Of a stretch of DNA of 64,000 nucleotides, positions 1,565 to 58,730 are shown piece after piece (the stretch's first letter is position 1; each line of letters begins with the position of its first letter). A model generated the notes under the pieces. The model saw nothing but the letters and a program-made list of their open reading frames with translations. It did not search any database and was not told the DNA's origin. The DNA is from Antedon mediterranea (Eukaryota > Echinodermata > Crinoidea > Comatulida > Antedonidae). The stretch spans positions 4,627,001-4,691,000 of the forward strand of contig NC_092680.1 in assembly GCF_964355755.1 (NCBI RefSeq), read 5' to 3'. A program made the translations under genes and the position numbers.

Positions 1565-2540
1565 AGTAAAGGAATATTTTACTACAATGTGAATAGAAAC
1601 AGGCAATAGAGTGGTGCTTTGATCATTTCTTTTGGTGTTTATTTTCTATTATTGGTCTTACGTATAAAAAAAATACTTAATGTTACTTTTATAAGCAATC
1701 TTTGATTTGTCAATTGTTACAAAACATTAAGTGAAATATTTCACGATTATAAAGACTTTTTGTTTTAGACAATAATCTTATAATTTCATAGATGTATATC
1801 TGATCTGCGATAAACAGGATTATGAGGTAAAGATAAGAAAACAAGATCGAACGAAAAGCACTGAATTACTTGAGATGAAAAACTGTTTATATTAATATTT
1901 CTATTATTTGGTAAATTGAATTACCATTATATTATATAGCATAAGAATTGATGCTACACAAGCAAGTTAGAAACAGTCCGACTAAAGATGGAACAAGAAG
2001 GATTGAATTACTTGAGAGGATGTGCTGAATCTTTCAAGCGAAGTTTTAATTTGCGAGTTTTAGCAGATGATTCCGAAATTAAAGAAACTTACAAAACAGC
2101 TCAAGAAAAAGGAAAAGTACCTGTTAACAGAACTAAGGTTCTTATTCTGGGTGATCAAGGGGCCGGAAAAACGTCGACCTGCAGGCGTTTACAAGGAAAG
2201 GATTTTCGATCAGAAGAGCCTAGTACAATCGGAATAGAAACAAACACCGTTGAGGCGAAAGTCAGTGATGTTAATAGTAAATGGTGTGCAGTGACAAGCA
2301 CTCCACTTGAAGACTATGAAAGTTCTGCAGCGTGGTGGACAGTATCACGTGTGCTTAAACAGGATAAATATAAGGATAAGTTAAAGGCAATGAATACGTC
2401 TGAAAATAATACACGTCCTTCGATCCGAAAAGTATTACAGGACACATATTACCTAATGTTTCATATTATGCCTATGACAGTAATGTTCTGTTTTGGTGGA
2501 CTTACATTCGGATTCGGGCCAGTTGCATGGTTTTATATAA

Positions 2541-4087
2541 CTAGATGGCACGCTCGCTTCGCTCGCGTACCATCTAGGTCGTGCCCACAGATGGTTCTCG
2601 AATACACAGTATTTCCAGCGAGAAAAAAATGGAGATTTCAAATGTACGTACCGCAGGACTATAATACATTGTCGTTTACAGAAACGAATAAATATACACA
2701 ATGATTTATGTAGTCAACCAAAATTAGCACCCTGGGAATTACTTCCGAGAGAGAAACAAATTTTTTTATTCGGACTCATTTAAACAAACCCAATTTGTGT
2801 TTTGTATGTAACATTAAGGGTTGAGGGATGGGGAAAGAAGATAGGTACAAAGAGGAAACATTTTAAAATATATTCTTATCCACTCAGTAACGAAATATTG
2901 TTTTTAATGTTTTATAGGCCTATAAATAATATACCATTAAATACAGTAAAACATTTACGATTTAATACGGTACTTTGTTAAAACTCTCACTGTCATAGTC
3001 GATTGAAATAGTAAAGTACATGTAACGATACACCACTACGACGTTTATATATTTTTAAATTATTAATTAATACAAACGTTGAGAAGCAACTGTCAGTAAT
3101 AACGTTTATTTATTTGTATATTATATGTTTATAATCTAACAGTAGGGCCTACCCACACTCACAGTAATAAAGTTTATTTGTATATATTTTATATTACATC
3201 TAACAGTACCAACACTCACAGTAAGAAATTTGCTATTCAAATTGCGATCAAAAGTGGTTAATACCTTAACAGTATTGTACAGCATTGCAGTACTATTTAT
3301 GTTTATTCTCCAAGGGGGCCCATAAATCTAAATCTATACCTCTATGGTTAAACCAAATAATTTGGAATGTTTATTTGTATATTATATGTTTATAATCTAA
3401 CAGTAGGGCCTACCCACACTCACAGTAATAAAGTTTATTTGTATATATTTTTATATTACATCTAACAGTACCAACACTCACAGTAAGACATTTGCGATTC
3501 AAATTGCGATCAAAAGTGGTTAATACCTTAACAGTATTGTACAGCATTGCAATACTATTTATGTTTATTCTCCAAGGAGGCCCATAAATCTAAATCTATA
3601 CCTGTATGGTTAAACCAAATAATTTGGAATGTTCCATTCATCACAAATCAATACATTTGTAAAAACGTATATTAAATGTAACAAAATAGTATTTTTTAAA
3701 GAAAATCGGCCTGTCTTCAACATTATGATGCTGTACTCGAACTGTTCAACCGGTTTTCAGCTATTAAAAACAATTATCGTAGGAGGAGATAGAAAAATGC
3801 GAAGCCTCCTCGCATTTTTGTGGCGGGTATTTTTCAAGATGGACATCCATTAGACAGTGTATACCACGATCGGAAAACACCCCTATTTGGGGCAAATCTT
3901 TGAACCTAAATTCGTTTTAATCGTCAATAACTAATTATCTAACTTAATTTAATTAGTAAACAGGGTTACATCAGGTGGTTAAAATCAGTACCGAAAGTAC
4001 GAACCAACTTTACATACCATCGAGTAAAAATTCTAAAAGTAAGGCGCGATTTACCGAATTTTGCCCTTACGTAAATTTATATATAGA
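2541..4087 (-). mobile_element. Non-autonomous Helitron inserted in ROCO copy 1
   Basis: Comparison with copies 2 and 3 defines the insert to the base. Host sequence ends ...TATATAA at 2540 and resumes TTTGTC at 4088, with no target duplication. On the - strand the element begins TCTATATATAAATTTACG and ends GTGCCATCTAG. It lies between host A and T, which is the canonical Helitron signature (5' TC, 3' CTRR, A|T target). A GC-rich hairpin, arms 2541-2553 and 2565-2577, sits at the 3' terminus. No Rep or helicase coding sequence is present, so it is non-autonomous. It contains a 262-bp tandem duplication. Confidence 0.9.
3108..3632. repeat. 262-bp direct tandem duplication inside the Helitron
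   Basis: The block 3108-3370 is repeated almost perfectly at 3371-3632. Matching landmarks are ttatatgtttataatc at 3121 and 3382, and aatttggaat at 3359 and 3621. Only a few substitutions and one or two indels are seen, so the duplication is recent. Confidence 0.9.
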
Positions 4088-7000
4088 TTTGTCTTTCGGT
4101 ATTTTGTGATTTTCACAGTGCCTATCGCTTTGGCTGTGGTTGTACTATATGTATGGTACTCATAGATAGCGCTACACATTTTGGCCAGCAACATGTTATA
4201 CAATTTAATTTACAGATGTACGTAATGACTATAACAATTGTCTGCATGTATGGACTGGGGTCGTTCCTTGTTGGTGTGCTTATGACTACAGGTGGAAGGA
4301 CTGGCATCTGTATAGCTTTGTGTTGCATGATACATCCAAGCCATACCACCATTTCCCTCGAAGTCTTACTAGAACACTTATCTAATATGTTTTACAGTAT
4401 GAAATATTTAGAATTCTCAATTTATGGCGTTACTATATTGGCCATCTTTAGGATCATTCACACCAAAATATTTTCGCTTAGTCCAAGAAATATGATAATT
4501 GTATTGCTACTTAATATCATGCTTATAACAGCAGCGATATATTTCGGAAGGAACAGTTTTGTTGACGTTTGTACATTATTTTGTTTTACTTTTACTGTGT
4601 TTTTCTTAATTTGTGGGCTAATATTAGGAAGAAAATTAGTGGCGTATGGATATATCCCCCAACAGTATCTTTTTAAAAAGTCTATTGGGTTTATTGCTGG
4701 AATATCTATTGGCAAAATGTGTGGTTGGGAAATTGGCAACTTTAACCATCTAAGTATATCAGAGAAAGAGAATAACATTTCTATGTCAAGTTTGTTGACA
4801 TTTATTGCCCCGATTTGGGGGTTTATAATCTACGAATGGTTTTCTTACATGAAAGTAAAATCGACGTCATTGATACCAATTGTGCATATCAGAAAATCAA
4901 TGGAAGCAGATCTACGAAACGAATGTTCCATTGACGCAAGACTAAGTTTATGGGATTTTGCAGGACAAGAAATGTACTATAATACACACCACCTGTTTAT
5001 GCCAAAGCAGGGCGTATACTTGGTTGTTTTCAACGCTGTAGAGGCGATTTCTAATCCTGGTAGACACATTAAACGGCTACAATTCTGGTTACAATCTATT
5101 GCTATGCATGTTGATATTCAGAATGCTGTAGTGTTTCTTGTAGGAACAAGAAGAGGAAGTGTACCTGATGCAAATGCTTTTTCCACTTTTGATAAATTTG
5201 TAAATGCACATCTTTACAGAAGGTTTTCAAAATTTCTTGCTTTTCATCCAAGTGGACAACTTTGCTTTTTTATTGAAAACGCATTCAACTTTGATAAGGA
5301 GCTTAACATCTTACGAGAAAGGATATATAATGAAGTAACAAGATTGAAATATTTTTGCGAAATGTTTTCTGTAAAATACCTATTATTTAAAAACACTTTA
5401 AATGGATTTCGACATAGACAGTGTATTATTACGAGTGTAAAAGATATTGAAAATGAATTAATGTTAACAAGCAAAATATTTGTGAAATATGAAGTGCGTC
5501 AACTTTTGAATTTCTTTGATAAATCTGGAGATATCATATACAATGAACTTGATGAACTACTTCAAAATTATGTTGTTTGTGATCCTCAGGTATTAATAGA
5601 CATTCTGAAATTATTAGTGAATGTACCTGAACCACACAAAAGAAACAGAGCCGTGTCTGATCTTTGGCAGAGATTACAAGAAACTGGGATTGTAGACAGC
5701 AGACTGATGGAACACATTTGCCGAAACAAAGGAATTTGGAGAGTTTATCCTTATGTTATTCGGTACTTGGTGGGAACAGAGTTGATTTTTCCACTTACAA
5801 TAACTAATCAAGTTGATCAAGTTGGGACATTTTGTCTTCCTTGCAAATTGCCCAAAATTAATTTACAAGTTGAATTTGATTCTAATCATACTTCTAATAT
5901 ATTTTAATTCGATTTTGGTGAAGTTTTATTAGAATTTATATTTCTTCGACTTATTGCAAAATGCTGCCAAGTTTTTGATTGGCTTGAGGTCTATTATAAC
6001 TTTGCACATTTCAGAGCAAGTGAAACATGTTTGTTTCAAATAAACACTGAAACAGTTCCTTCGGACAGTATTTTCCAATACGATAGAAATCTCATCAAAC
6101 TTTCAGTTTTAAAGGAAATCCCGAGTCAGTCAGTTAATATCTTACAGAAAATGCATACTTTCATTGAAGAAATAATCCTACAAACGTTTAATCCGGAATA
6201 CTTTCATGATCAGTATCTTTTTGGTCCAGTATGTGAAAGATGTAGTTCTTTGGATGGAACAATGTGTTTGGTGAATCTTGTTGGAATAAATAACGATGCA
6301 TCGAATGAATACAGAGTAGATAAATATCACAAAGTGTATCACAAATCAAAGGTTATAATTATATGGTTATTTTACCTAAATTAATTATCTTGGTTAGTAG
6401 TGAGTAACGCCATAGTTAATTGATTAAGTTTTTGTTTTTAATATTATTTATACTAATTTGCTTTATAAATTCTTTTATTTTACAGTTCAGTTTTACCTGC
6501 TGTAGACCAACCTTCACCTAGTCAACTGTTTGATAAATTGATTAAACAATACAGTGTTGCATTAAGTGCATTAAGTTCACAGGAGAACACCTATTAAGGG
6601 ACACCGAAACTTTCCCCTTAATAGAGGTTTCTGCGGAGAAAAAAACAAATTTCAAAATGTATATACTAATTTAAATGATCTGGACAAGAAATGTTGAATA
6701 ATGATTAAAACTGTACCAGTCAACGTTTCACCAATGAAAACTATCATTTCAGAGAAAGTACGATAATTATTATGAGATCCATTTTTGTATTAATAATGCT
6801 ATAAATTCGGTCTGTTTTGTTGTTTTGTGATGGACAACGAGCTCTAGCTTGGGTTCGAATTTCTACGAATTATTTTTTAGTTGAAAATAAATACTGTTTT
6901 TCTTTTATTTTAGAAGTGAGATATTTAGAGAGTTAAGTTAATTTAGTAAATAGGTAAGGGATCTTTGTGATTCCCACCGTCATAAATGCATAGTCAACTG

Positions 7001-9954: not shown

Positions 9955-10039
9955 TAGTAAATTGAATACGATACATAATTATATTATATAGCATAAGAAT
10001 TGATGCTACACAAGCAAGTAAGAGACAGTCCGATTAAAG

Positions 10040-13000
10040 ATGGAACAACAAGGATTGAATTACTTGAGAGGATGTGCTGAATCTTTCAAGCGAAGTTTTA
10101 ATTTGCGAGTTTTAGCAGATGATTCCAAAATTAAAGAAACTTACAAAAGAGCTCAAGAAAAAGGAAAAGTAACTGTTAACAGAACTAAGGTTCTTATTCT
10201 GGGTGATCATGGTGCCGGAAAAACGTCGACCTGCAGGCGTTTACAAGGAAAGGATTTCCGACCAGAAGAGCCTAGTACAATCGGAATAGAAACAAACACA
10301 GTTAAGACGAACGTTAGTGATGTTAATAGTAAATGGTGTGAGGTGACAAGCACTCCACTTGAAGACTATGAAAGTTCAGCAGCGTGGTGGACAGTATCAC
10401 GTGTGCTTAAACAGGATAAATATAAGGATAAGTTAAAGGCAATGAATACGTCTGAAAATACATATGCTTCGATCCGAAAAGTATTACAAGACACATATTA
10501 CCTAATGTTTCATATTATGCCTATGACAGTAATGTTCTGTTTTGGCGGACTTACATTCGGATTCGGGCCAGTTGCATGGCTTTATATTATTTGTCTTTCG
10601 GTATTTTGTGATTTTCACACTGCCTATCGATTTGGCTGTGGTTATACTATATGTATGGTACTCATAGATAGCGCTACACATTTTGGGCAGCAACAGGTCA
10701 TACAATTTAATTTACAGATTTACGTAATGACTATAACAATTGTCTGCATGTATGGACTGGGGTCGTTCCTTGTTGGTGTGCTTATGACTACAGGTGGAAG
10801 GACTGGCATCTGTATAGCTTTGTGTTGCATGATACATCCAAGCCATACCATAATTTCCCTCGAAGTCTTACTAGAACACTCATCTAAGATGTTTTACAGT
10901 TTGAAATATTTAGAATTCTCAATTTATGGAGTTACTATATTGACCATTTTTAGGATCATTCACACCAAAATATTTTCGCTTAGTCTAAGAAATGTGATAA
11001 TTGTATTGGTACTTAATATCATGCTTATAACAGCAGCGATATATTTCAGAAGGAACAATTTTGTTGACGTTTGTACATTATTTTGTTTTATTTCTACTGT
11101 GTTTTTCTTAATTTATGGGGTTATAATAGGAAGAAAATTTGTGGCGTATGGATATATCCCTCAAAACTATCTTTTTAAAAAGTCTATTGGGTTTATTGCT
11201 AGAATATATATTGGCAAGATATGTGGTTGGGAAATTTGCAATTTTAACCATCTAAGTATATCAGAGAAAGAAAATAGCCTTTCTATGTCAAGTTTGTTGA
11301 CATTTATTGTCCCGATTTGGGGGTTTATAATCTACGAATGGTTTTCTTACATGAAAGTAAAATCGACGTCATCGATACCAATTGTGCATATCAGAAAATC
11401 AATGGAAGCAGACCTACGAAACGAATGTTCCATTGAAGCCAGACTAAGTTTATGGGATTTTGCAGGACAGGAAATGTACTATAATACACACCATCTGTTT
11501 ATGCCAAAGCAAGGCGTATACTTGGTTGTTTTCCATGCTGTAGAAGCGATTTCTAATCCCGATAGACACATTAAACGGCTACAATTCTGGTTACAGTCTA
11601 TTGCTATGCATGTTGATATTGAGAATGCTGTAGTGTTTCTTGTAGGAACAAGAAGAGGAAGTGTACCTGATGCAAATGCGTTTTCCACTTTTGATAAATT
11701 TGTAAATGCACATCTTTTCAAAAGGTTTTCAAGATTGCTTGCTTTTCATCCTAGTGGACAACTTTGCTTTTTTATTGAAAACGCATTCAACTTTGATAAG
11801 GAGCTTAACATCTTACGAGAAAGAATATATAATGAAGTAACAAAATTGAAATATTTTTGCGAAATGTTTTCTGTAAAATACCTATTATTTAAAAACACTT
11901 TAAATGGATTTCGACATAGACTGTGTATTATTGCGAGTGTAAAAGATATTGAAGATGAATTAATGTTAACAAGCAAAATCTTTGTAAAATATGAAGTGCG
12001 TCAACTTTTGAATTTCTTTGATAAATCTGGAGATATCATATACAATGAACTTGATGAACTACTTCAGAATTATGTTGTTTGTGATCCTCAGGTATTAATA
12101 GACATTCTTAAATTATTAGTGAATGTACCTGAACCACACAGAAGAAACAGAGCCGTGTCTGACCTTTGGCAGAGATTACAAGAAACCGGAATTGTTGACA
12201 GTTTACTGATGGAACACATTTGCCGAAATAAAGGAATTTGGAGAGTTTATCCTTATGTGATTCGGTACTTGGTGGGAACAGAGTTGATGTTTCCACTTAC
12301 AATAACTAATCAAGTTGATCAAGTTGGAACATTTTGTCTTCCTTGCAAATTGCCCAAAATTTATTTACAACAAGGTGAATTTGATTCTAATCATACTTCT
12401 AATATATTTTACTTCGATTTTGGTGAAGTTTTACTAGAATTTATATTTCTTCGACTTATTGCAAAATGCTGCCAAGTTTTTGATTGGCTTGAGGTCTATT
12501 ATAACTTTGCACATTTCAGAACAAGTGAAACTTGTTTGTTTCAAATAAACACTGAAACAGTTTCTTCGGGCAGTATTTTCCTATACGATAGAAATCTCAT
12601 CAAACTTTCAATTTTAAAGGAAATCCCGAGTCAGTCAGTTAATATCTTACAGAAAATGCATACTTTCATTGAAGAAATAATCCTACAAACGTTTAATCCG
12701 GAATACTTTCATGATCAGTATCTTTTTGGTCCTGTGTGTGAAAGATGTAGTTCTTTGGATGGAACAATGTGTTTGGTGAATCTTGTTGCACTATGTAACG
12801 ATGCATCGAATGAATACAGAGTAGATACATATCACAAAGTGTATCACAAACCAGAGGTAATTATGGTTATTTTACCTAAATGTGCTTTATTAATTAATTA
12901 TCTTTGTTAGTAGTGAGAAGTAAAGCCATAGTTAATTGATTAGGTTTTTGTTTTTAATAATTATTATTTATACTAATTTGCTTTATAAATTATTTTATTT

Positions 13001-13041
13001 TGCAGTTCAGTTTTACCTGTTGTAGACCAACCTTTACCTAG
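10040..13041 (+). CDS. Membrane-inserted ROCO family GTPase, copy 2 (intact, 950 aa)
   Basis: Exons 10,040-12,856 and 13,006-13,041 (GAG|GTAATT ... TTTGCAG|TTC) join in phase 0. The last exon encodes FSFTCCRPTFT and a stop. Order: basic N-terminal helix (1-45); P-loop GDHGAGKTST (55-64); switch I STIG (79-82); hydrophobic block about 152-434 with 8-10 candidate membrane segments; G3 LWDFAGQ (471-477); G4 position VGTRRG (535-540), lacking the usual Asp; COR domain about 600-900, including FDKSGDIIYNELDELL; a Cys pair CERC near 900-903. Neither LRR nor kinase domain is seen. ROCO proteins bind GTP and dimerise through COR. A multi-pass insert inside Roc is not something I recognise. The number of helices should be even if both Roc halves face the cytosol. 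Membrane signalling is inferred, not shown. ATG 10,040 is chosen by agreement with copy 1. Confidence 0.88.
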
Positions 13042-17249: not shown

Positions 17250-20243
17250 ATGGAACGTAAAACACTGAATTACTTGAGAGGATGTACTGAATCTTTCAAG
17301 CGAAGTTTTAATTTGCGAGTTTTAGCAGATGATTCCGAAATTAAAGAAACTTACAAAACAGCTCAAGAAAAAGGAAAAGTAACTTTTAACAGAACTAAAG
17401 TTCTTATTCTGGGTGATCATGATGCCGGAAAAACCTCGACTTGCAGGCGTCTACAAGGAAAAGATTTTCGATCAGAAGAGCCTAGTACAATCGGAATAGA
17501 AACAAACACTGTTGAGACAAACGTTAGTGATGTTAATAGCAAATGGTGTGAGGTGACAACCACTCCATTAGAAGACTATGAAAGTTCAGCAGCGTGGTGG
17601 ACAGTATCTCGTGTGCTCAAACAGGATAAACCTAAGGATAAGTTAAAGGAAAATAATACGTCTGAAAATGATACACGTCCTTTGATCCGAAAAGTATTAC
17701 AGGACACATATTACCTAATGTTTTATATTATGCCTATGACAGTAATGTTTTGTTTTGGTGGACTTACATTTGGATTCGGGCCAGTTGCATGGTTTTATAT
17801 AATTTGTCTTTCGGTATTTTGTGATTTTCACAGTGCCTATCGCTTTGGCTGTGGTTGTACTATATGTATGGTACTCATAGATAGTGCTACACATTTTAGC
17901 CAACAACATGTCATACAATTTAATTTACAGATTTACGTAATGGCTATAACAATTGTCTGCATGTATGGACTGGGGTCGTTCCTTGTTGGTGTGCTTATGA
18001 CTACAGGTGGAAGGACTGGCATCTGTATAGCTTTGTGTTGCATGATACATCCAAACCATATGACAATATCCCTCGAAGTCTTACTAGAACACTTATCTAA
18101 GATGTTTTACAGTATGAAATATTTAGAGTTCACAATTTATGGAGTTACTATATTGACCATTTTTAGGATAATTCACACAAAAACAATATCGCTTAGTCTA
18201 CGAAATGTGATAATTGTATTGCTACTTAATATCATGCTTATAACAGCAGCGATATATTTAGGAAGGCACAATTTTGTTGACATTTTTACATTATTATTTT
18301 TTATTTTTACCTTGTTTTTCTTAATGTGTGGGCTAATAATAGGAAGAAAATTAGTGGCGTATGGATATATCCCCCAACAATACCTTTTTAAAAAGTCTAT
18401 TGGGTTTATTGCTGGAATATATATTGGCAAAATGTGTGGTTGGGAAATTGGCAATTTTAACCATCTAAGTATATCAGAGAAAGATCATAGCCTCTCTATG
18501 TCAAGTTTGTTGACATTTATTGCCCCGATGGGGGGGTTTATTATCTACGAATGGTTTTCTTACATGAAAGTAAAATCGACGTCATCGATACCAATTGTGC
18601 ATATCAGAAAATCAATGGAAGCAGATCTACGAAACGAATGTTCAATTGACGCAAGACTAAGTTTATGGGATTTTGCAGGACAAGAAATGTACTATAATAC
18701 ACACCACCTGTTTATGCCAAAGCAAGGCGTATACTTGGTTGTTTTCAATGCCTTAGAGGCGATTTCTAATCCTGGTAGACACATTAAACGGCTACAATTC
18801 TGGTTACAATCTATTGCTATGCATGTTGATATTGAGAATGCTGTAGTGTTTCTTGTAGGAACAAGAAGAGGAAGTGTACGTGATGCAAATGCTTTTTCCA
18901 CTTTTGATAAATTTGTGAATGCACATCTTTACAAAAGGTTTTCGAAATTGCTTGCTTTTCATCCAAGTGGACAACTTTGCTTTTTTATTGAAAACGCATT
19001 CAACTTTGATAAAGAGCTTAACATCTTACGAGAAAGGATATATAATGAAGTAACAAAATTGAAATATTTTTGCGAAATGTTTTCTGTAAAATACCTATTA
19101 TTTAAAAATACTTTAAATGGATTTCGACATAGACAATGTATTATTGCGAGTGTAAAAGATATTGAAAATGAATTAATGTTAACAAGCAAAATCTTTGTGA
19201 AATATGAGGTGCGTCAACTTCTGAATTTCTTTGATAAATCTGGAGATATCATATACAATGAACTTGATGAACTGCTTCAGAATTATGTTGTTTGTGATCC
19301 TCAGGTATTAATAGACATTCTGAAATTATTAGTGAATGTACCTAAACCACACAGAAGAAACAGAGCCGTGTCTGACCTTTGGCAAAGATTACAAGAAACT
19401 GGGATTGTTGATAGTAGACTTATGGAACACATTTGCCGAAATAAAGGAATTTGGAGAGTTTATCCTTATGTTATTCGGTACTTGGTAGGAACACAGTTGA
19501 TATTTCCACTTACAATAACCAATCAAGTTGATCAAGTTGGAACATTTTATCTTCCTTGCAAATTGCCCAAACATAATTTACACGGTGAATTTGATTCTAA
19601 TCATACTTCGAATATATTTTACTTCGATTTTGGTGAAGTTTTACTAGAATTTATATTTCTTCGACTTATTGCAAAATGCTGCCAAGTTTTTGATTGGCTT
19701 GAGGTCAATTATGACTTTGCACATTTCAGAGCAAGTGAAACATGTTTGTTTCAAATAAACACTGAAACAGTTTCTTCGGGCAGTATTTTTTTATACGATA
19801 GAAATCTCATCAAACTTTCAGTTTTAAAGGAAATACCGAGTCAGTCAGTTAATATCTTACAGAAAATGCATACTTTCATTGAAGAAATAATCCTACAAAC
19901 CTTTAATCCCGAAAACTTTCATGATCAGTACCTTTTTGGTTCAGTATGTGAAAGATGTAGTTCTTTGGATGGAGCAATGTGTTTGGTTAATCTTGTTGGA
20001 ATAAATAACGATGCATCGAATGAATACAGAGTAGATAAATATCACAAAGTGTACCACAAACCAAAGGTAATTACATGGTTATTTTACCTAAATGTGCTTT
20101 AATTAGTTATCTTGGTTAGTAGTGAGTAACGCCATAGTTAATTGATTTAGTTTTTGTTTTTAATTTTATTTATACTAATTTGCTTTATAAATTCTTTTAT
20201 TTTGCAGTTCAGTTTAAAATGCTGTAGACCAACCTTCACCTAG
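17250..20243 (+). CDS. Membrane-inserted ROCO family GTPase, copy 3 (intact, 950 aa)
   Basis: Exons 17,250-20,066 and 20,208-20,243 (AAG|GTAATT ... TTTGCAG|TTC); exon 1 is again 939 codons, and exon 2 encodes FSLKCCRPTFT. Domain order equals copy 2: P-loop GDHDAGKTST (Asp where the others have Gly, within the permissive GxxxxGK[ST] pattern), switch I STIG, hydrophobic block about 153-434, G3 WDFAGQ, degenerate G4 VGTRRGSV, COR. The start region MERKTLNYLRG resembles the upstream uORF of copy 2 rather than its true start. This is consistent with a deletion between the two N-terminal repeats. A MITE lies immediately upstream, so promoter and leader differ from the sister gene. Differences from copy 2 are scattered and the frame is fully open, which suggests maintained function. 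Confidence 0.88.
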
Positions 20244-21440
20244 ACAACTGTTTGATATATTGATCAACCAAACGAGGCATGTATACAGTGTTGCATTAAA
20301 TACAGGAGAATCCCTATTTAGGGAAACTGTCCACTTAATAGAGTTTTTTGCGGTGAAAAAACAAATTAATTGATCTGGACAAGACATTTTGACTAATGAT
20401 TAAAACTGTATCAGTCAACGTTTCACCAATGGAATTGTTATGAGATCCATTTTTGTATTATTATTGCTATAAATGACTAATTATTTAATCTGTTTTGTTG
20501 TTTTTGTGATGGAAAAAGAGCAAAACTAGGAGGTGAATCAACCATTTGGTTTCTCCGTTCCCTTAATAGGTTGTTCCCTCAGTAGGGGTTGGCCATGTGT
20601 TTCATATAAACATTTGCGCCTTGTTTCGAGTGAAAGTGTCCCTTAATATGGGTTTCCCCTGAATAGGGTGTCCAAGGAGGTTCTACTGTTCAATGTTAAA
20701 ATCCTAAGTGGGCCCACACTGGATAAATAGTGGTACCAGATAAATATGATTAATATTGTTAATGGTTAAGTTTCAATAGTAATACACCTATGCAAAAGAA
20801 AGAAATGTATTTTTCTTTTAACAATGGATAACCATGTCTTCGATGTTTATAATAAATATATAAATAATATTTCACTAATTTCAAATGACGCGTTGTATCG
20901 TAACGATTCTATTGTTCTAACTGTTAATTAAATCTAATAATGATATAAACATAGACAAACATATTTCAACTTTTAATTATTTTATAATAACGGTATATAA
21001 TAAGCCAAATTTTTAATAATGAAACTGAATATAAATTTTAACTACATTTTTAAATAGTTTTTTTTATATTTTAAACTGTATCCATACTGAATAATGTATC
21101 TATGTAACTTCTTGTCTGTTTTTTTATGTTTCTATGTAAAGCGCCTTTGAGCATGTTTTTTCATGAAAAGGGCGCTATATAAATGTGGTATATTTTTATT
21201 ATTAACTAATTAAATAATATGCACAGTTATGAATGTTATCAATTGGTAATAATATAGATATTCAATTACATATTTTAAACTGAACAAGTAAGTCCAGTTG
21301 AACAGATTTAATTTAATTTTGGTAAAATGAACTTGCATATAAAAATTACTTTTCTATAAGATCATTCATGCAATATGTTTATTGTACTATCCATTTATAC
21401 ACTTCGCTAAATGAAACTCATTGTACATATACATAACAAC
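20244..21440. other. Spacer between ROCO array and minisatellite
   Basis: Homology to the other units ends near 20,521. Beyond it is a patch with several cccttaata/gggtttccc-like segments (20,560-20,680) and then very AT-rich sequence. No gene is seen. Confidence 0.5.
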
Positions 21441-22832
21441 ACACGATACCAAACGATATACTCGTTATCAAACAATTATACTCGTTACCAAACGATATAC
21501 TCGTATACTCGTTACCAAACGATATACTCGTTACCAAACAATTATACTCGTTACCAAACGATATACTCGTTACCAAACGATATACTCGTTACCAAACGAT
21601 ATACTCGTTACCAAACGATATACTCGTTACCAAACGATATACTCGATACCAAACGATATACTCGATACCAAACGATATACTCGTTACCTAAAGATATACT
21701 CGTATACTCGTTACCAAACGATATACTCGTTACCAAACAATTATACTCGTTACCAAACGATATACTCGTTACCAAACGATATACTCGTTACCAAACGATA
21801 TACTCGTTATCAAACAATTATACTCGATACCAAACGATATACTCGTATACTCGTTACCAAACGATATACTCGTTACCAAACAATTATACTCGTTACCAAA
21901 CTATATACTCGTTACCAAACGATATACTCGTTACCAAACGATATACTCGTTACCAAACGATATACTCGTTACCAAACGATATACTCGTTACCAAACGATA
22001 TACTCGTTACCAAACGATATACTCGATACCAAACGATATACTCGATACCAAACGATATACTCGTTACCTAAAGATATACTCGTTACCAAACGATATACTC
22101 GTTACCAAACGATATACTCGTTACCTAAAGATATACTCGTTACCAAACGATATACTCGTTACCAAACGATATACTCGATACCAAACGATATACTTGTTAC
22201 CTAAAGATATACTCGTTACCAAACGATATACTCGTTACCAAACGATATACTCGTTACCTAAAGATATACTCGTTACCAAACGATATACTCGTTACCAAAC
22301 GATATACTCGTTACCTAAAGACTCGATACCAAACGATATAATCGTTACCAAACGATATACTCGTTACCAAACGATATACTCGTTACCAAACGATATACTC
22401 GATACCAAACGATATACGGTACTCGTTACCAAACGGTATACTCGTTAAGATATACTCGTTATCAAGAGATAACTCGTTATCAAGAGATATACTCGTTACC
22501 AAAATATATACTCGTTACCAAACGATATACTCGTAACCAAACGATATACTCGTTACCAAACGATATACTCGTTACCAAACGATATATACGTTACCAAACG
22601 ATATACTCGTAACCAAACGATATACGGTACTCGTTACCAAACGATATACTCGTTACCAAACGATATATACGTTACCAAACGATATACTCGTTACCAAACG
22701 ATATATACGTTACCAAACGATATACTCGTTACCAAACGATATATACGTTACCAAACGATATACTCGTTACCAAACGATATATACGTTACCAAACGATATA
22801 CTCGTTACCAAACGAGTATATCGTTTGAAATG
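21441..22832. repeat. 19-bp minisatellite, about 70 monomers, with higher-order structure
   Basis: The monomer is TATACTCGTTACCAAACGA (19 bp). Variants include GATACC, ACCTAAAGA, AACAATTATA (20 bp) and a short TATACTCG duplication. The variant order repeats with a 342-bp period (18 monomers): ctcgttatca at 21,461 and 21,803. Near the 3' end two variants alternate (TATATACG/TATACTCG, a 38-bp dimer). Each monomer contains the inverted pair TCGTT-ACCA-AACGA. Because 19 is not a multiple of 3 and the monomer lacks stops, all + frames are long open frames (345 aa and 216 aa); these are not credible genes. Confidence 0.97.
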
Positions 22833-25175
22833 TATGTAGACCGCGCTAAAGAGGTTTCGTTCTACCTGAGAATATTTTAAGACCATAATTGAATTTGTAC
22901 ATAGTTAATAGTATAAGTTGTTCTGCAAATCAATTATATTGTTTATTATACTCATCGCATTGTAAATTTGCTGAAACGGCTTATCTAATAAAATGTAAAT
23001 CATTTCATCTGGGTTTAGTTTTACTATTCAATGTGACTTACCTTGTCAGCTGGGGTTCTATTGTTAGCATCTGATCATTTTAAAAATATGCACAATCTGG
23101 TATTTTCCATTGGCAATGTTCATCATTACTTTCATTGCTCGTTTTTCCTTATTCAGTTGCGTATTTTCCACGTAGGCCTATCTCATCTGCTCATATTTAG
23201 CTCACATAATTTTCTTCTCCAAAGACCTTTTTAAACCTATATTTTCAGTTTATCACGCATATAAAACACGAAAACAATCACTATTTTGAACCTCTCTTTA
23301 GCAGTGTTTTCGCGGGTTGTTATACACGTCACATTATCTAGAGACACTTCTGGTTTATGTACCGCAGTGAGTAGTATGCAATTACCGTGCCAGTTCATGA
23401 AGATAAACCTGTCTTTAGTCATTGGGACCAAGTCGAAAAATATTTCGGTCATACTGGATTCGTTCCCTCAAGATGACGTTCATGAATATGCATATTTATG
23501 ACGTAACGATGAATTACGTAATAAAGCGCGTAAAAATAGACTATTACCAGCTGTTCAAGTACTTTACGGCGTAACGGGAAATGCTCGGTCTTGAGAACCG
23601 TCAGCTCTAGCTTGGGTTCGAATCTCAACGGATTTTTTTTAGTTGAAAATAAATATTGTTTTTCTTTTATTTAGAATGAGAGATATTTAGATTCAGGAAA
23701 TGTCAGGCCTAGGCCTAAACAATTTCCTTTATATTGGGGTGGGGGATGCGCGCTGCCGGCCTTCTCACCTGCATTATAAGACGATACAACATGGCTACAC
23801 ATTAAACTGTTCTATTGGCATCAACTTTATTGTCAATGTATTCCATGAAATAACCAAAATTTCAATTACAAAATTAGTATATAATGCAAATACAATAACG
23901 TAATGTGTAAGTACATGGAAAAGGTATTTAAATACGTTTACTATAAATTTAAGCACTCTTAAAGTACGGGTTCAGAAAGCTAATCAATTGTAAAAGGATG
24001 CCATGCAATAATTATGTTACTGACAATCACTACAAAATAATAAATAAATAGGAATAATAATACATCTAGGTTTTACAGCTGCGTCGGATTCGGATTGCGG
24101 CAACGGATAGAGGGCGCTTATACGAACCGACTAAGACTACTGTAATGGTTTGATTTTTTTTTAATCTACTCCAAAGAAAGGGCTTTATTGTAGTATTCCT
24201 CAAATATGCTTCTAATATTAGATAACATGCATTAGTAGGTGACAGCATTTTAATATATTAAACACTTGAGAAGGTATATACATTGAAGATATAGTAGAAA
24301 GTTAAAGCAATTCTAATTCGTACCAATAGGCCAGAAGTTAAGAGAAAATCTATTTGGCTATTTACACTTTCGTTGAGAATAAAAACATCACTATTGTGCC
24401 TATAAAAATAAAGCGTCTATGAATGGTGTGTCAATGACTTTTCTAAACAGTCTCAATTGCATCACTGTTGTGTTTCTATATATTAACTCACTTGGATTAT
24501 TAAACGTAATAAACAATATTTCTATAATTATTTCTATAATATAGTATAAATTAAAATAAACTAAATATTAAAGTATTTCTGTTTCTGTAAAACTACATTT
24601 TGGAATATTCATCTAAATATACTCTATATAACGTAGATTGTTTTAAAGAATCTCTTTTTGAAGTCGGACTAAGAAAAAATGCTTTATATTTACAAAAAAA
24701 AAATCTTGATAAACATAGTTTGTATTATCAGAGAAAGCTTTTTTCTGGTTAAGGAACGGATGTACTCAGTCTGGATGTACTGTGACATCAGGCTCGTCAT
24801 TCAAATATATCGTTTGACAACTCTAACCATAATTATTATATTTTTTTAATTGGTACAAATGTTTTACCCGTAGTTTTAATCAACTCAAAGAAACGCAATG
24901 CAAAATTTGTTAAAAACAATGGATTTTTTTCTCAGAATGTTTTTTTTTCTGAAACTGTACACATCACATTGCATTAATAAGTTTAAAGCGAATCTTATCC
25001 TTAACTATGTCATAATTACTGTATAAAGTTGTACAAATAGAAAGATGTTCGAGCCTAATTTTATATTATAAAATAAATATATTTAACATTCATTTTACAT
25101 ATCGTCGAGTATTATTTATAATGTTTTGTTACGCCCTCTATGTCTATGACATTCCTACTGTCTTTATATCGTGTA
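22833..25175. other. Intergenic region between minisatellite and TINAG-like gene
   Basis: Contains a SINE (23,478-23,690). Short unrelated ORFs are present on both strands around 23,040-23,500, without recognisable motifs. A GC-richer patch lies near 24,070-24,130 (gagggcgct). The gene's 3' UTR should lie just below 25,176 on the - strand; no canonical AATAAA was found there. Confidence 0.45.
23478..23690 (+). mobile_element. tRNA-derived SINE, family A
   Basis: tatttatgacgtaacgatga...aatagactattaccagct...ggcgtaacgggaaatgctcgg...ttgggttcgaatctcaacgg. The gggttcgaatctc segment is a polymerase III box B. A second copy with the same order lies at 53,590-53,760. Tail-like parts also occur in ROCO spacers near 6840 and 13,350. 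Confidence 0.65.
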
Positions 25176-28100
25176 TTATACATCTTTGCTCATCATTGCT
25201 GCATCTACTTTTCCCCAGGCTCCTACGACAAACGACTCAATTCCACACATATTTGAACCACGTTCGATACGGAAATAACCATCTTCTCCCCAGTTTCTTC
25301 CCCAAGAATTTGCACAGAGCTGAAAAAATAGTACAACATTCATTATGCACCCAGAACATTATTACTAGCTATCTGTAAAAGTATACTGATACACAAATAT
25401 CTTTACAGTTTCAATTTCAATTATATGAAGAACACTGACATTGGAGTTGGTTAATTATTTCTATTGGTTTATTAGTAAGTTAGTAGAACTATGCTGTTGC
25501 TGCGTGCTATGTATTTGCGCACATGTCATCAAATACTCGTGTAGAGTGTATTGTAGATAGTCCCTGTTAATTTTGTCAAGAACCTAAGTTAATTAAATAT
25601 CTTTTTCTGTTTAAAGCAATATGAAATCGCTTAATATATTAATTCATTTACATAACTTACCCAATATGGAACGCCGTTTTCGTCAGTGCCCCACCCAATG
25701 ATTCTCACCGAATGCCAACCACTTTGTTGATACTGTGGAGGTTCTTGGACTCGTGCGTAGCGGTATACTCCTCGTTTGTACATAAAGAAATCCGATTCCA
25801 CTAAGAAAGTTGCTGATTAAAGAAGACATGTAATAAAAACATTAGTTAAAATAAGTAAAGGCTATCAAAAATTCAACTTTAATTGGCTAGTGTTTCTTGC
25901 ATCATCGTTTTACACCTTTCCAACCTCACCAGAATTTTTAACTATCTTGAGACACCGAATTGTATTGGTTGTAATGAATACAGAAAACAAACAAAAGAAC
26001 ATATTAAAAACTCAACTCAAGATTTATAAACGTATACAACAAACGACTAACCTTGTACTGGACCATTTTTAAATATTTCGTGTTTAATTTCATTTTCCTA
26101 CAATAGAATAAATCGTAAATAAAATTGATCATGTAAATAATATTCGTAAAACTCAGTTGTACATGTGAACAGAACATAATAGTCGAAATGCGTTACGATG
26201 TATTATCTGTCACTGTCATTTTTAGTTCATTAAATAACTACTATATCTATAAAAAAAAAAAAAACTTTATATACTATACTTATATTTCTATTTAAAAGAA
26301 AAAAAAAAACTTTAAAACAATAAATATTCCCATGAATTTAAGAAATATTATGAAATTTCAAAGATCACTTACTTCTTGGCCAATTCTATAAGGAGGTGTT
26401 GACTTGTAGGCTTCGCTGTGGACATATTCATTAGGACAAGGTGAGTGTTCCGGTGGTGGCAACATACAGTGTCCCTTCTTCATCGTCATATCCGTGTCCA
26501 TACCACTTTTGTATGGATAGCACTCAGCAGTCACAATTCTAAGTGTAAATCATGTTATATTGTTTAATATAAGGATTAGAAATTACAGAATATTAATTAA
26601 TTATTTATGAATCCTATCAAAAAGCTAAAAGTTGGAGATCAATATAAACTCAATTGTCAGAGCCCGGTTTAGATCACGGGAACATTTCAGTGTTAGAGAG
26701 ACCTGTAAATAAGGAGCATTGTAACTTGCGACTACGACCTAGGACTTATCGAAACATTATGTATATTCTTAGTATCTAAAAATCACCAATACTGTGCCAA
26801 TAAATTGCGAGGAAGCACGTCGCAACTTCCACACATCAATACTACACACATAACCCAAACATTTGTTTTTTACTATTGGACATGAATTTGGAAGTATACG
26901 GTAATAAAACTCACCCTTTCTTTCTTAGAAAATACCATGCACGATCAGTATACCCTCCATCGCATCCTCTCTGACGTCTAGTATTGCATGACAGTAAATG
27001 TTGTGGAGATAAAATAACTTTCATCGTTCCCATAGATTGGATAGCCAGACGGTCAGATGCAACTGCTGTTGTTGAAAAAGCCCATGAACTTCCGCAATTA
27101 CCCTGATCCATAATTTCTTCGATGTAACCGGGCCACTTCTCTCGTGCATCAAATCTGTCTGGTACACTATGTTCCTCCATTTGAATTTTATTCATAGACA
27201 TCACCGTCTCATCAGGTTTCATTGTACCCAGTCTAAAACGGACTCCGCTTTCTAATGTCTTACCCCAAAACACGGTGTAGTTATCTGCAAACCATCTGAA
27301 AAAATAAGTACGAAAACAATAAATTAAAATAGAAAGTAATTTAGAAAGTAAATTTTTTCGATGCCACTGTTCACTTTCAATATCATTTATAAATCACAAG
27401 TTTTGTTTTCTTCTTTTTCAATTTATATTTACCCTTTAGTCAGCATCGCTAATTCTATTCCGACAACGCTGATTGATTTAGAGTTATAAAATATAAAAAG
27501 ATAACTTTCATGTGAAATAAAATAGTTGACCATACCCATTTTCTGTATTGCCATTGACTTTGTCAATTACATTTTCCCGTATAAGACAAGCATTCATTTC
27601 ACATTCAAATGCATATTTTCCAGATCCAGATTGTACTTCTTTACAAGTGCTGCAAATTAAAATATAACACAATATAAAATGATAACCAGCGCCCTCTAAC
27701 GTAAATTTGCTGTTTTTCAAGATTAAATTATACGTCAGTATAACTAAATAAAGTAAACTCTCTGCTAATACATTCCAAATTACACAATATTCACTGTTTA
27801 AAAAAAATTATAAATGAACCATCATTTCACACGATAAGAATATCAATGTACATTGGCAGCTCCGGGTTTGAGAGAAACATGGTCAATTTATTCCATGTTA
27901 CATTGGCGGTGGATTTGAAATCAAGACGATCCGCAAAAAGCTACATGATAGTAAAAACATATTGGCTAAATTTTACCGGTAAAGTATGAGTCACAAAACA
28001 AGGGGGTTTTCAATGGTATATCTTGCTGCTTTTGAGTTTATACCAAGAACTCAGAGAGGCCTAATAGATAAATTTACCAATATGCATATTATTGAAAACC

Positions 28101-29112
28101 AGTAAAGGACAGAAATATTGTGTGTCATTTACACTTCATAATCATCAAAAAGAAATTAATAATAACGGGCAAAATATATAAAAAACACCTGTACTGTCGT
28201 CGTGCACCCTTGGGTCAATCGATTAATACATATTTTGGTTGTTAATAATTCACTTATAGTAATGGAAACTAAATTGACAAAATGTTTGAAGAAAAGTATG
28301 TTTACCATCGGTTACAGTTTTCAGTATATGACAATCCCGCAGAAAATTTAGCACCATCATCACGAAGACAATCAACTAAAAACAATAATTATAACAATAT
28401 GAATCAATTTTTATAATATGTATTTGCTGTGCAGTATAGTTCCCTTACTATTAAAAAAATGTTTCTAAATATTGTTTTCAATATTTAATATACGTCCAAT
28501 CAAATGAAATCATGATTTGTAAGAGTAATAATAGCTGGCAATATTATTTTATCAAGACAACATAAATAAGTATCCTATAGGCCTATAGTTTTAGACTGAA
28601 CACTTTTTGTTTTGTTTTATGTAAGAAACTTTTATTTTTATCTATTTATCGTCGATCGTTATCGTCCTGGTGTGTAGCAGCCTTAACATTGGAGGTTAAT
28701 TGTACAATTCTGGCTCGTTTGCAGAACCTAGTGCATAGTTCGGTATACAGATCCATGTAGTTCATGTTGAATTAACTGTGGCTGTTATTATCTAACAAAC
28801 TGACAAACAAAAAAATAGATTTTTAGTCCTATCATTATGATGTTAAAGCTACTTACAGTCCGTTACGTGATCTGGCGGCAATGTAGGCTCGATATTAAGG
28901 CATTCACTAGAAAAATCCGGGCAACAGTCACCCGATTCAGTCCGGTCACAAAACTCATCACAATAACAATAATGACCGTCCATTGGTGTCAGACAACTAT
29001 CATCTCGACCAAAACAACATCCTCTTACTTCACAGTATTGCGCGTTGGCAATTGAAAAACAAACGGTTGCAATTAGCCAACATGAAAGCACCTTCACTAT
29101 GTTTCCGTCCAT
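25176..29112 (-). CDS. TINAG/TINAGL1-like secreted cathepsin B-fold pseudoprotease (442 aa)
   Basis: Eight coding exons: 29,112-28,857, 28,375-28,306, 27,649-27,536, 27,295-26,915, 26,538-26,373, 26,097-26,052, 25,812-25,661, 25,319-25,176. All introns are GT-AG and all phases join. Signal peptide about 1-24 (before QYCEVRG). Somatomedin-B-like cysteine module 27-71 (C27, CC32-33, CYC49-51, DCC62-64). VWC-like module about 88-130 with ENCNRCTC (104-111). Cathepsin B-like domain about 192-440. The oxyanion Gln (211), His378 and Asn399 of ANSWG are present, but the nucleophile position in NCGSSWAFS is Ser217, as in vertebrate TINAG and TINAGL1. The family consists of non-proteolytic basement-membrane proteins that bind laminin, collagen IV and integrins. 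The length is close to the usual 465-476 aa. An acceptor at 29,120-29,121 just before the ATG shows that there is at least one upstream untranslated exon. Confidence 0.93.
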
Positions 29113-29119
29113 CCTAGTT

Positions 29120-32100
29120 CTGTAAGAAAACAAATTATTATTCACACACAACTCTTAATACATTGTTAAAGCTCAGGTACAGGCATGGATTTTGAATATA
29201 ACATCTGGTTAAATGTACATAAAACAAATATGTGCAACAAAATCACGACGAAAACACACGAATTTCCCTTAAAATGACCAATTTTTCAACATTTTGCTAT
29301 AAAAGCCTGACCGACTTTTGTCAGTAGTTAGGTAGTTTAACAAATGTCTTACCATATCCGGTGACTCCCTAGAAAGTGCAAAAAAGGTTGGGGGTATAAT
29401 ACAGTGGACAATTGTTGATATAGCTATACCACAACGATATTTTCCCTAATTGTTTCAAAATGCTTCTCTATTACTGTGTAATTTGAACTATCCCCCATTG
29501 ATACGATTTTCAACAAAATAGTGTAGCACAATAATAAAATCCAAGAAATTATGAATCGATAATTATTAGAATGTATGATCAATAGAAATGTTTTGTTCGC
29601 ACGTGGCCTATGATGAAGTATCTCATTGCTCTTAACTAAACTATTTCGAAACTGTTTGATTTGGAATTACGAAATGTGTCGTGGGAATAGGTAATTCTCC
29701 AGTATGTGAATAAATCCCATGATTACCTAACGAAACAAAGTCGAAAACTTAAGTCACGATCATAAAATCGAACATTCCATTGTCAGATTGCCTTGCATTG
29801 ATGATTCCGACGAAACAAGTAAACACCTTTTAAAAAAAAACTAGGCCACGAAATTGGTACAACCCAGAAAAACACAACACGGGTTTTTAAATGGAAACAT
29901 CTTATATACCAGTTGAGTAACATACTATAAGAAGTGGTAACAGAGCCGAAAATCGATAAGTTATTCAACAAAATGTTAAATGTTTTTATAATACATCTTC
30001 ATTCCAACTTAATTTCTATCAGACTGTGTAATGCGATTAACGGGTATTTAGTCCCATTAGCGTCTTTCAATGGCGATAGAATATATCTTATTGTTTCTGT
30101 TTAAGTCCAGCATCAGAATGGCAGCAACGAAGACACGAGATACACTTTCTTATTGTCTGGTTAACTCAATGATACTAATTTGAAATAAAGGCAACATAAT
30201 ACAAAAGAAGATTTAGTTTAATCGTCCGATTTCAGAAAAAGACATTTAGTTTTGGTACTTTTAATGTATATAGTTTTATTCTTTGGTTCCCAGCCATACT
30301 TACGGTATCTAAAAAAGAAAAATGGTGGCCGGAAAAAAGATCTATCTTCTAAAGAAAGCTTGTGATCTACCCCAGCTCATTATAAACACTAAAGCGTGGT
30401 TCCCACTAGCGACGCAACACAAGGACGTAACGCAACGCAAGTGAATTGACCAATCACAAGCGATGGCTTATTCGCTTGTGATTGCTACCGCCGGTCTATA
30501 ACTTCGCTTGTCATTAGTTAAAACGCTTGCGTTGCGTTTACGTCCTTGCGTTTACGTCCTTGCGTTACGTTCTAGTGGGACCAAGCTTATGAGTTAAAAG
30601 TACCGTAGATGACGGACGCGTAAGAGAAGATTGTGACCATTTCCATTGACATGTGCACGCGCGCATTATTCAGTATAGGCCTACATTTAATAAAGACAAA
30701 ATAAATCACAATTCGGAATAATAATGGATAAAAGCAGGAAAAGTACTAAAAGACCTAAAAGGCCAACGTATTTTCACTCTGGTCCTACTGTAAAAATTCG
30801 AGCATTCTTTAATATAAATGTTACACATACTTATAATACTTTATCACTTCCACACGGTTTCATTGAAATCATTTTAATTAAAACCATCCATTCAACATTT
30901 TCTTTCAATATTACCTCATTTTTCATGTCCAAGTTAACTTTTTTTCTGTTTCTATTTTAAGAAACCAAAGAAGATTATCAATGAGCCTCGTTAAATCTAA
31001 ACCATTCAAAAATACCTTGCACACAAGTGTATCCTAGGCCATCATAAAACTAACATTCAATATTCTACAAATGTTTAGGGGTGACGATGAACAAATACAT
31101 ATACATATATCCGGTCATAAAACTAATAAAACACACATTGATAAGCACCGTAGTACACAACTTTGGTTGGAAAATCCCACTACCGGTACTTAGTAGGCCT
31201 ACTCGAGGATTTCAGCCATTCATGTATCTCTCGACTACGGTACATCATCATTAGTCTCTTCAACACTTACCTAAAAAATGTTTTGTATGAAATGAAGGGT
31301 TTTCCTCGGCTCTTAAAACATTCGTATTGTAGGCCTAAGGTACCTCTCTAGCAGGTGATCAGACGAGCACAATATCGATTAGTATAAGCAAACCGTTTAT
31401 TATTATTAACCCCTTAATTGCCTATCGGCTGAAATATTATCCTAGTCAGATAAGAAGAAAACTGTTGTGAATTAATTTATAAAATCACAAAATCAAGTTT
31501 TCTTTTTATTCCACAGGCGTGCTTCATTAGGTTCACACCATTCCAGTCAAACCGTTTTGAAGTTTGTTTATAACAACCCAGAGGATCAAAAGAATTATCC
31601 TCGCATTGGTGGTGTATTAAAGAAGGAACCAACGTAGCGAGGCTAAATCCATATGATTATCCAAGCTTACACGTTGAATATATTACATCGGCACAAACGG
31701 AATTAACAGGTTGTTAGCAAATGTTCTGTCCGATATGCGTTTCTTTAAATTCAAATTAAGTTGTAATTATCCAAGGGCAGATCCAGGATTTCTGAAAGGA
31801 GCTAATAATAGCCTTATGATGGGTACAAAGGCCCCACCCGCTTTCTCTCTTGTCCATCTTGTACAGGTCAACTGTAGTACGTATTGATGAGGAACATGAT
31901 AATGAGCCTAAATAAACACCTTTCTCTCCATAACTAATGTATAAAGTAGGCCAACTAAACAAAATCATTATACACGTAGTGGTAATATGTTAAAATAAAT
32001 TATATATAAAATTGTATACGTTTGAAGTGGGTGGAAGCACTTACGCTCTGCATCCCGCCAATGATCTTGCTATGCTATATATATGAAAACACTAGGGTTC

Positions 32101-58706: not shown

Positions 58707-58730
58707 GTTCTTTCAATTAAACTATAAAAC

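Follow-up and report, generated by a model that had tools for sequence, protein, structure and literature searches.

A 64,000-nt stretch of the genome of the crinoid Antedon mediterranea (here referred to as the window) contains an open reading frame (ORF) that reads as a ROCO GTPase whose Roc domain is interrupted by a long hydrophobic segment. The locus raises the question of whether this segment is a genuine part of the protein and, if so, what a membrane domain could do inside a GTPase switch.

Organization of the split-Roc gene in the window

The ORF, designated P0001, spans positions 10022 to 12910 on the plus strand, encodes 962 amino acids (aa), and is open throughout; the model Met is residue 7, and all residue numbers given here follow P0001. 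The order of its parts is the first half of Roc, a hydrophobic block of approximately 280 residues, the second half of Roc (from DFAGQE onward), and the COR region. Exon 1 of the split-Roc gene (10040 to 12856, plus strand) is an open frame of 939 codons from the ATG to an inferred splice donor (GAG/GTAATT; final exon base, 12856). An inferred intron at 12857 to 13005 (plus strand; GTAATT...TTTTGCAG) would lead to a last exon at 13006 to 13041 (plus strand) encoding FSFTCCRPTFT and a stop codon, which was proposed from the sequence only and whose end is the end coordinate given in the first-pass annotation. An in-frame GTA-type donor was present at the exon end in 15 of the 16 near-full copies of the gene that we found in the genome (see below); in copy L015, the frame is shifted at the exon end, and the donor is visible in the DNA. 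A pattern search detected a last-exon-like stretch downstream of half of the fetched copies (7/14) and none behind the second copy in the window (within 19900 to 20500). The split-Roc gene probably has more than one exon. The earlier one-exon reading holds in that Roc, block, Roc, and COR are read through one open exon, but the in-frame donor suggests a further short exon.

The window contains a second intact copy, whose exon 1 lies at 17250 to 20066 (plus strand). The same layout in all 16 near-full copies in the genome, these two included, makes it very unlikely that it results from an annotation join. A third copy (1952 to 6384) is broken: its 5′ part lies at 1952 to 2557 and its 3′ part, which is preceded by inserted DNA and contains an in-frame stop, at 4087 to 6384 (both plus strand). 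The insertion, of approximately 1.5 kb, falls within the membrane block.

GTPase motifs and the COR region flank the block

The first half of Roc (residues 54 to 135; 10181 to 10426, plus strand) comprises β1, the P-loop, switch I, β2, and a conserved stretch, TPLEDYESSAAWWTVSRVLK. Within it, the P-loop (G1) reads GDHGAGKTS from residue 61 (10202 to 10228, plus strand), and the switch I region with the G2 threonine reads PSTIGIE from residue 84 (10271 to 10291, plus strand). The second half (residues 451 to 610; 11372 to 11851, plus strand) covers β3, switch II, and the G4 and G5 region, with the G3 motif WDFAGQE from residue 478 (11453 to 11473, plus strand) and a G4-like VGTRRG from residue 541 (11642 to 11659, plus strand). 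G1 and G3 are thereby separated by approximately 410 residues, and switch I and G3 are separated by approximately 390. The Pfam Roc profile matched P0001 in two stretches (whole-protein E value of 5 × 10−20), the better of which, residues 457 to 544, corresponds to profile positions 37 to 117 of 119, and it was found in all 15 family members scanned. In a PDB sequence search, LRRK2 chains aligned to residues 465 to 568, and chains named "Leucine-rich-repeat protein" and "Rab family protein," which we take to be bacterial Roco proteins, aligned to residues 41 to 94. The motif positions and the two-part Pfam match confirmed the separation of the P-loop and switch I from G3 that had been proposed for this locus.

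The A-G-K-T-S of the P-loop was invariant across 15 aligned copies, while the P-loop and G3 motifs as a whole varied slightly among the 16 copies (e.g., GDHDAGKTS and WDFSGQE). Two features weigh against the reading as an integral-membrane ROCO GTPase. The final position of the G4-like motif, usually Asp, is Gly in nine, Glu in five, and Asp in two of the 16 copies; the ROCO G4-G5 motifs are described as variable in the accessible text of PMC6337361. The COR-A match of P0001 is weak (Pfam E value of 0.02, under the curated cut-off). COR-A was nevertheless reported, weakly, for all 15 members scanned (best E value of 6 × 10−4), and the COR part of the family matched the COR exon of an ordinary ROCO gene of the same genome (E value of 3.7 × 10−5 in a set of 779 ORFs). 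On this likeness and the weak COR-A match, we assigned residues 611 to 945 (11852 to 12856, plus strand) as the COR region, which thus follows Roc in the usual place, as expected from the first-pass annotation. Leucine-rich repeat (LRR), kinase, and ankyrin parts gave no Pfam match in the ORF. The Roc domain of P0001 is not contiguous, with approximately 390 residues including the membrane block between switch I and G3; since the other tested sequence features are present in order, we regard this as a variant feature rather than as an exclusion from the ROCO proteins. By its parts, the predicted split-Roc protein is a ROCO.

The block is constrained coding sequence in a gene family

A search of the genome (354 Mb, 18 contigs) with P0001 yielded at least 44 matching segments (47 scored of 77 candidates). 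Sixteen of these were near-full copies: the two in the window, seven further copies on contig C11 at 4.57 to 4.63 Mb, four at 17.54 to 17.60 Mb and two at 19.23 to 19.24 Mb of the same contig, and one on contig C4. The remaining segments were fragments, broken copies, or distant matches. Exon identity to the window copy was 52 to 92 % for 14 of the 15 other near-full copies; L015, 49 % identical to P0001 in its genome match, was omitted from this comparison because of the frame shift near its end and was retained in the alignment and in the dN/dS, codon, and residue counts. Copy L006 contains a single TAG in its matching stretch, located behind the inferred splice donor. A genome search with the L015 block returned 33 matches at loci shared with the P0001 search, except for one fragment (C11:19239933) that adjoins the pair of copies at 19.23 Mb.

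Across residues 150 to 450, the 16 copies contained no in-frame stop codon, compared with 401 and 236 stops in the other two forward frames, and residues 136 to 450 spanned 311 to 322 codons, in frame, among the copies. Differences in the block at codon positions 1, 2, and 3 amounted to 0.29, 0.20, and 0.42, respectively. The median pairwise dN/dS of the block was 0.33, with a maximum of 0.50 (97 of 120 pairs; all medians exclude pairs with dS outside 0.02 to 1.5). The corresponding medians were 0.12 for the first half of Roc (residues 54 to 133; 103/120 pairs), 0.29 for its second half and 0.30 for COR (92/120 pairs each), and 0.28 for the N terminus (93/120 pairs). The frame open in 16 of 16 copies, the stops in the other frames, and the dN/dS of 0.33 show that the block is coding sequence under constraint rather than an intron. 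The initial description of a Roc domain split by a multi-pass block and followed by COR through one exon was thus borne out, and it now applies to a constrained family of 16 copies.

Divergence is unevenly distributed along the protein. Median identity was lowest in the block (57 %), compared with 72 % in the N terminus and 79 to 87 % in the Roc halves and COR. Pooled differences at fourfold sites, counted only where the first two bases agree, were highest in the linker and block, at 0.42. The N terminus followed with 0.36, the first and second halves of Roc had 0.34 and 0.23, and the corresponding values for the halves of COR were 0.25 and 0.35; the block was also the part with the highest fourfold divergence within cluster A and between both clusters. 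Gene conversion that acts on the second half of Roc and the beginning of COR but spares the diverging block would explain this pattern. The uneven silent-site divergence also fits a common Roc-COR output that would be combined with differing membrane inputs.

The block is a predicted polytopic membrane domain

The membrane block comprises residues 158 to 437 (10493 to 11332, plus strand), with up to 10 predicted spans and both ends predicted to be cytosolic. In P0001, eight separate 20-residue segments exceeded the GES threshold, all of them within residues 162 to 438. Family-mean hydropathy combined with a simple topology model gave 4 to 10 spans depending on the threshold. The 8 to 10 candidate segments counted originally agree with both P0001 itself and the upper range of the family average. 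In all five parameter settings, the best topology was N-in/C-in with an even number of spans (10, 8, 4, 6, and 10), ten being obtained at the two permissive ones. The model is home-made and crude, its span number shifts with the threshold, and the Lys and Arg residues of the charged flanks (residues 130 to 157 and 438 to 470) push it toward N-in/C-in. An even span count is a requirement for a G domain that is reassembled in the cytosol, and the model supports a cytosolic location of both Roc halves with up to ten spans between them.

Invariant positions were more frequent in predicted inner loops (13/44) than in predicted outer loops (2/40; Fisher P value of 0.004). However, when the inner and outer labels were redistributed among the nine loops, 8 of 126 arrangements reached the same contrast in entropy, and a shift of the topology by +3 or +6 residues enlarged it; we therefore take loop conservation as mild support only. 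Between residues 150 and 450, 38 polar, Cys, Gly, Pro, Tyr, or Trp positions were invariant in all 16 copies, including D197, H199, R203, D216, R260, H272, and R371. A Pfam search with the 16 blocks (E value of ≤10) returned eight families, each matching one member only (best E value of 0.021), and a PDB profile search with the block gave no match at an E value of ≤10. In prokaryote genomes, 23 stretches matched one of two block peptide patterns, none of which was confirmed. AlphaFold models were of low confidence (pLDDT of 30.8 for the full length and 37.3 for the block) and unusable.

Site of the insertion and ordinary ROCO genes of the genome

Because the first Roc piece passes switch I and the second begins just before G3, the insertion point is between switch I and switch II. 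Alignments to Pfam and LRRK2 suggest that the insert occupies the β2-β3 (interswitch) turn, as we presume from the usual strand order. The locus had been described as having its nucleotide site closed around the bundle; Roc is indeed split by the block, but the alignments place the insert between the two switches, so that the bundle could hang from one edge of the G domain.

Two ordinary ROCO loci of the genome (L019 and L020), read by eye, have long G2-G3 linkers distributed over several exons. In L019, STDGID...W lies in one exon, and 70 residues precede the W of WDFAGQ in another, which gives a linker of at least approximately 108 residues provided that both exons come from the same gene; as the two differ in splice phase, an additional exon may lie in between. 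The pattern in L020 resembles that in L019, and an LRRK-like locus (L021) has a short linker. The usual distance of 40 to 60 residues from the P-loop and switch I to G3, assumed in the first-pass annotation, fits Ras and LRRK, but the linkers of L019 and L020 are longer. Judging from these two loci, the linker apparently had considerable and variable length before it took up the block, and our guess is that the block possibly arose by insertion into an intron of this linker.

At least 120 COR-A matches were obtained in this genome at an E value of ≤0.01 (150 scored of 190 candidates), seven of them above the Pfam cut-off, in regions on contig C3 (approximately 12 Mb and 19 to 25 Mb), C4 (16 to 19.7 Mb), and C1 (2.3 to 3.4 Mb; e.g., L029). 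The one C3 locus that we read contained ROCO-like G4 and COR exons. Ordinary ROCO genes may have undergone a very large expansion in Antedon mediterranea.

A pair of Roc-only genes with the same layout

A gene at C3:1707353-1709050 (566-aa ORF; L016:1054-2751, minus strand) encodes a P-loop-like segment, a hydrophobic block, and the second half of Roc, followed by a stop codon. A second gene, at C1:9760927-9762537 (L025:3428-5101, minus strand), has the same order and is 67 % identical to it. Both have lost the P-loop Ser/Thr and DFAGQ, and the COR part was found in neither; GT-containing stretches occur just upstream of the stop, and splicing to further exons is possible. The pairwise dN of 0.21 and dS of 0.58 indicate that the pair is under constraint. 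The Roc half is homologous to that of the split-Roc family (hhalign, 98.3 % for the C3 gene; HMM E values of approximately 1 × 10−12 for C3 and 6 × 10−10 for C1). When the block profile alone was run against 1,000 shuffles plus the two genes, shuffles were reported, and neither gene was at an E value of ≤1,000. With a Roc-block-Roc profile, the alignment of the C3 gene ran via approximately two-thirds of the block into the Roc half, and the scoring alignment of the C1 gene was confined to the Roc half. In the search for a known family of the block, the two genes gave stray matches only (best E value of 0.19). Since the profiles do not support homology of these blocks with those of the C11 family, we credit the pair with the same layout and not with the same bundle. 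It is possible that both genes encode pseudo-GTPase membrane proteins.

Proposed mechanism and alternative explanations

The reading frame, the order of the parts, the gene family, and the coding constraint were observed directly. The explanation that we consider the most satisfactory, and somewhat probable, is an integral-membrane ROCO GTPase with a polytopic bundle inserted at the interswitch turn of Roc, reassembly of the two halves, and coupling of the bundle to the switch. It is favored by the succession of G1 and switch I ahead of the block and of G3 and COR behind it, by the same order of parts in the C3 and C1 genes, and by the long G2-G3 linkers of the two ordinary ROCO loci. The bundle of up to ten helices would constitute a domain-in-domain insert in the β2-β3 turn, and an even number of spans would keep the two Roc halves on the cytosolic side, allowing them to form one G domain with COR next to it. 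As the chain ends are expected side by side at the hairpin turn, the G domain could adopt its fold while the bundle projects from one edge. Binding of a ligand, lipid, or ion, or a transport event, would change the shape of the bundle, whose cytosolic loops and two tethers would then exert or relieve tension on the interswitch hairpin. Switch I and switch II would shift as a result, and the change would pass to COR and its partners. Through the same parts, the GTP state could in reverse gate the bundle. The assembled G domain, the coupling of bundle and nucleotide, its direction, and the ligand are what we infer from sequence features. More tentatively, the genes might represent a new class of receptor or gated membrane protein with its bundle in the interswitch, diversified in this lineage into a clustered family whose members have Roc-COR as a common output and differ in their membrane modules. 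In that case, no separate receptor, guanine nucleotide exchange factor (GEF), or adaptor would be required between a membrane event and the GTPase switch.

The closest alternative, which is possible but doubtful, shares this anatomy and overlaps with the preferred explanation but runs in the opposite direction: the block would be a transporter, channel, or lipid enzyme that serves as the output, and Roc-COR would be its nucleotide-dependent gate. The invariant charged and His residues within or beside predicted spans would suit such a function; however, the lack of any family match for the block means that no transport or enzyme class is indicated, and the C3 and C1 genes keep a hydrophobic block without the P-loop and G3 residues. 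The degenerate motifs of that pair imply that a hydrophobic block can persist without a normal GTP site. We regard it as unlikely that the block merely anchors Roc-COR to the membrane with no role in switching. No other part of the protein diverges as much as the block, and the ROCO G2-G3 linkers of L019 and L020 seem tolerant of length change, as a plain anchor would allow, yet up to ten spans far exceed the need for anchoring, and an anchor would hardly account for 38 invariant positions, D197, H199, and R203 among them.

Two further readings have very little probability. Kinship of the block with XK-related scramblases, which had been suggested initially, would be in keeping with what we recall as a similar number of spans, but XK-related (PF09815) was absent from the Pfam families matched by the 16 blocks at an E value of ≤10, and a search of the same genome located XK-related exons (seven matches) at two other loci, with no match at any split-Roc gene. 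We therefore abandoned this suggestion. Slightly less probable still is that the block is a non-coding intron or an annotation artefact that is spliced out. The ordinary multi-exon ROCO genes of the genome do have introns between G1 and G3, but the approximately 300 codons remain open in all 16 copies, their length varies by whole codons, and the order of divergence at codon positions (3 > 1 > 2) and the dN/dS are those of coding sequence, on which grounds this reading was rejected. The nested-bundle ROCO remains our preferred explanation.

Relation to known GTPases

To our knowledge, the split-Roc protein would be the first case of a multi-pass membrane domain enclosed within a G domain. With the ROCO proteins LRRK1/2, MFHAS1, DAPK1, and bacterial Roco, the split-Roc protein has in common the P-loop, the switch I Thr, W-D-F-A-G-Q, and COR; it differs from them by the membrane block within Roc and by having no LRR, kinase, or ankyrin match. 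Heterotrimeric Gα proteins carry a soluble helical domain inserted in the Ras-like G domain before switch I, so that both have a whole-domain insert near switch I, whereas that of split-Roc is hydrophobic and lies between switch I and switch II. In the Arf interswitch toggle, the β2-β3 hairpin links membrane binding and nucleotide state. The lever proposed for split-Roc would be the same hairpin, but in Arf this hairpin is short, the N terminus forms an amphipathic helix, and a membrane-spanning insert is absent. FeoB and other GTPase-membrane fusions combine a G domain and a polytopic membrane part in one chain; there, an intact G domain is fused end to end with the membrane part, whereas that of split-Roc is interrupted. 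LRRK2 is linked to Parkinson's disease.

The accessible text of PMC6337361 distinguishes three ROCO groups, with LRR, LRR-kinase, and kinase-death-domain layouts. According to the part of PMC11378527 that was available, the Roc domains of brown-algal LRR-ROCO receptors range from 77 to 467 aa owing to truncations or insertions; these genes are clustered and expanded, as in the split-Roc family, but their Roc insert is there described only as non-conserved sequence, unlike the split-Roc block. Some Ectocarpus ROCOs have a C-terminal domain homologous to transmembrane proteins (PMC4104024, available in part), which is C-terminal to Roc-COR, whereas the split-Roc block is inside Roc. The accessible text of the openly licensed literature, which largely excludes subscription papers and preprints, yielded no description of the split-Roc membrane layout, in agreement with the original remark that no characterized protein of this design was known to its author. 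LRRK2-type ROCOs work at membranes, to which they are recruited from the cytosol, and the membrane input to their switch is incompletely understood (PMC6337361, as far as accessible). A natural ROCO with a membrane part in the interswitch would allow membrane-switch coupling to be tested directly, and split-Roc would reveal the site at which a G domain can accommodate a very large insert.

Other features of the window

Besides the split-Roc copies, the window contains exons of a small GTPase gene, presumably Rab23-like, on the plus strand (58728 to 58889, 60.26 to 60.38 kb, 61.8 to 62.0 kb, and 62.56 to 62.77 kb). Exons at 26911 to 29154 (minus strand) encode a Cys-rich part and a cathepsin-like part, which we take to resemble a tubulointerstitial nephritis antigen-like protein. 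A long low-complexity tandem repeat (TRYQTIYSLPND...), open in several frames, occupies 21411 to 22880.
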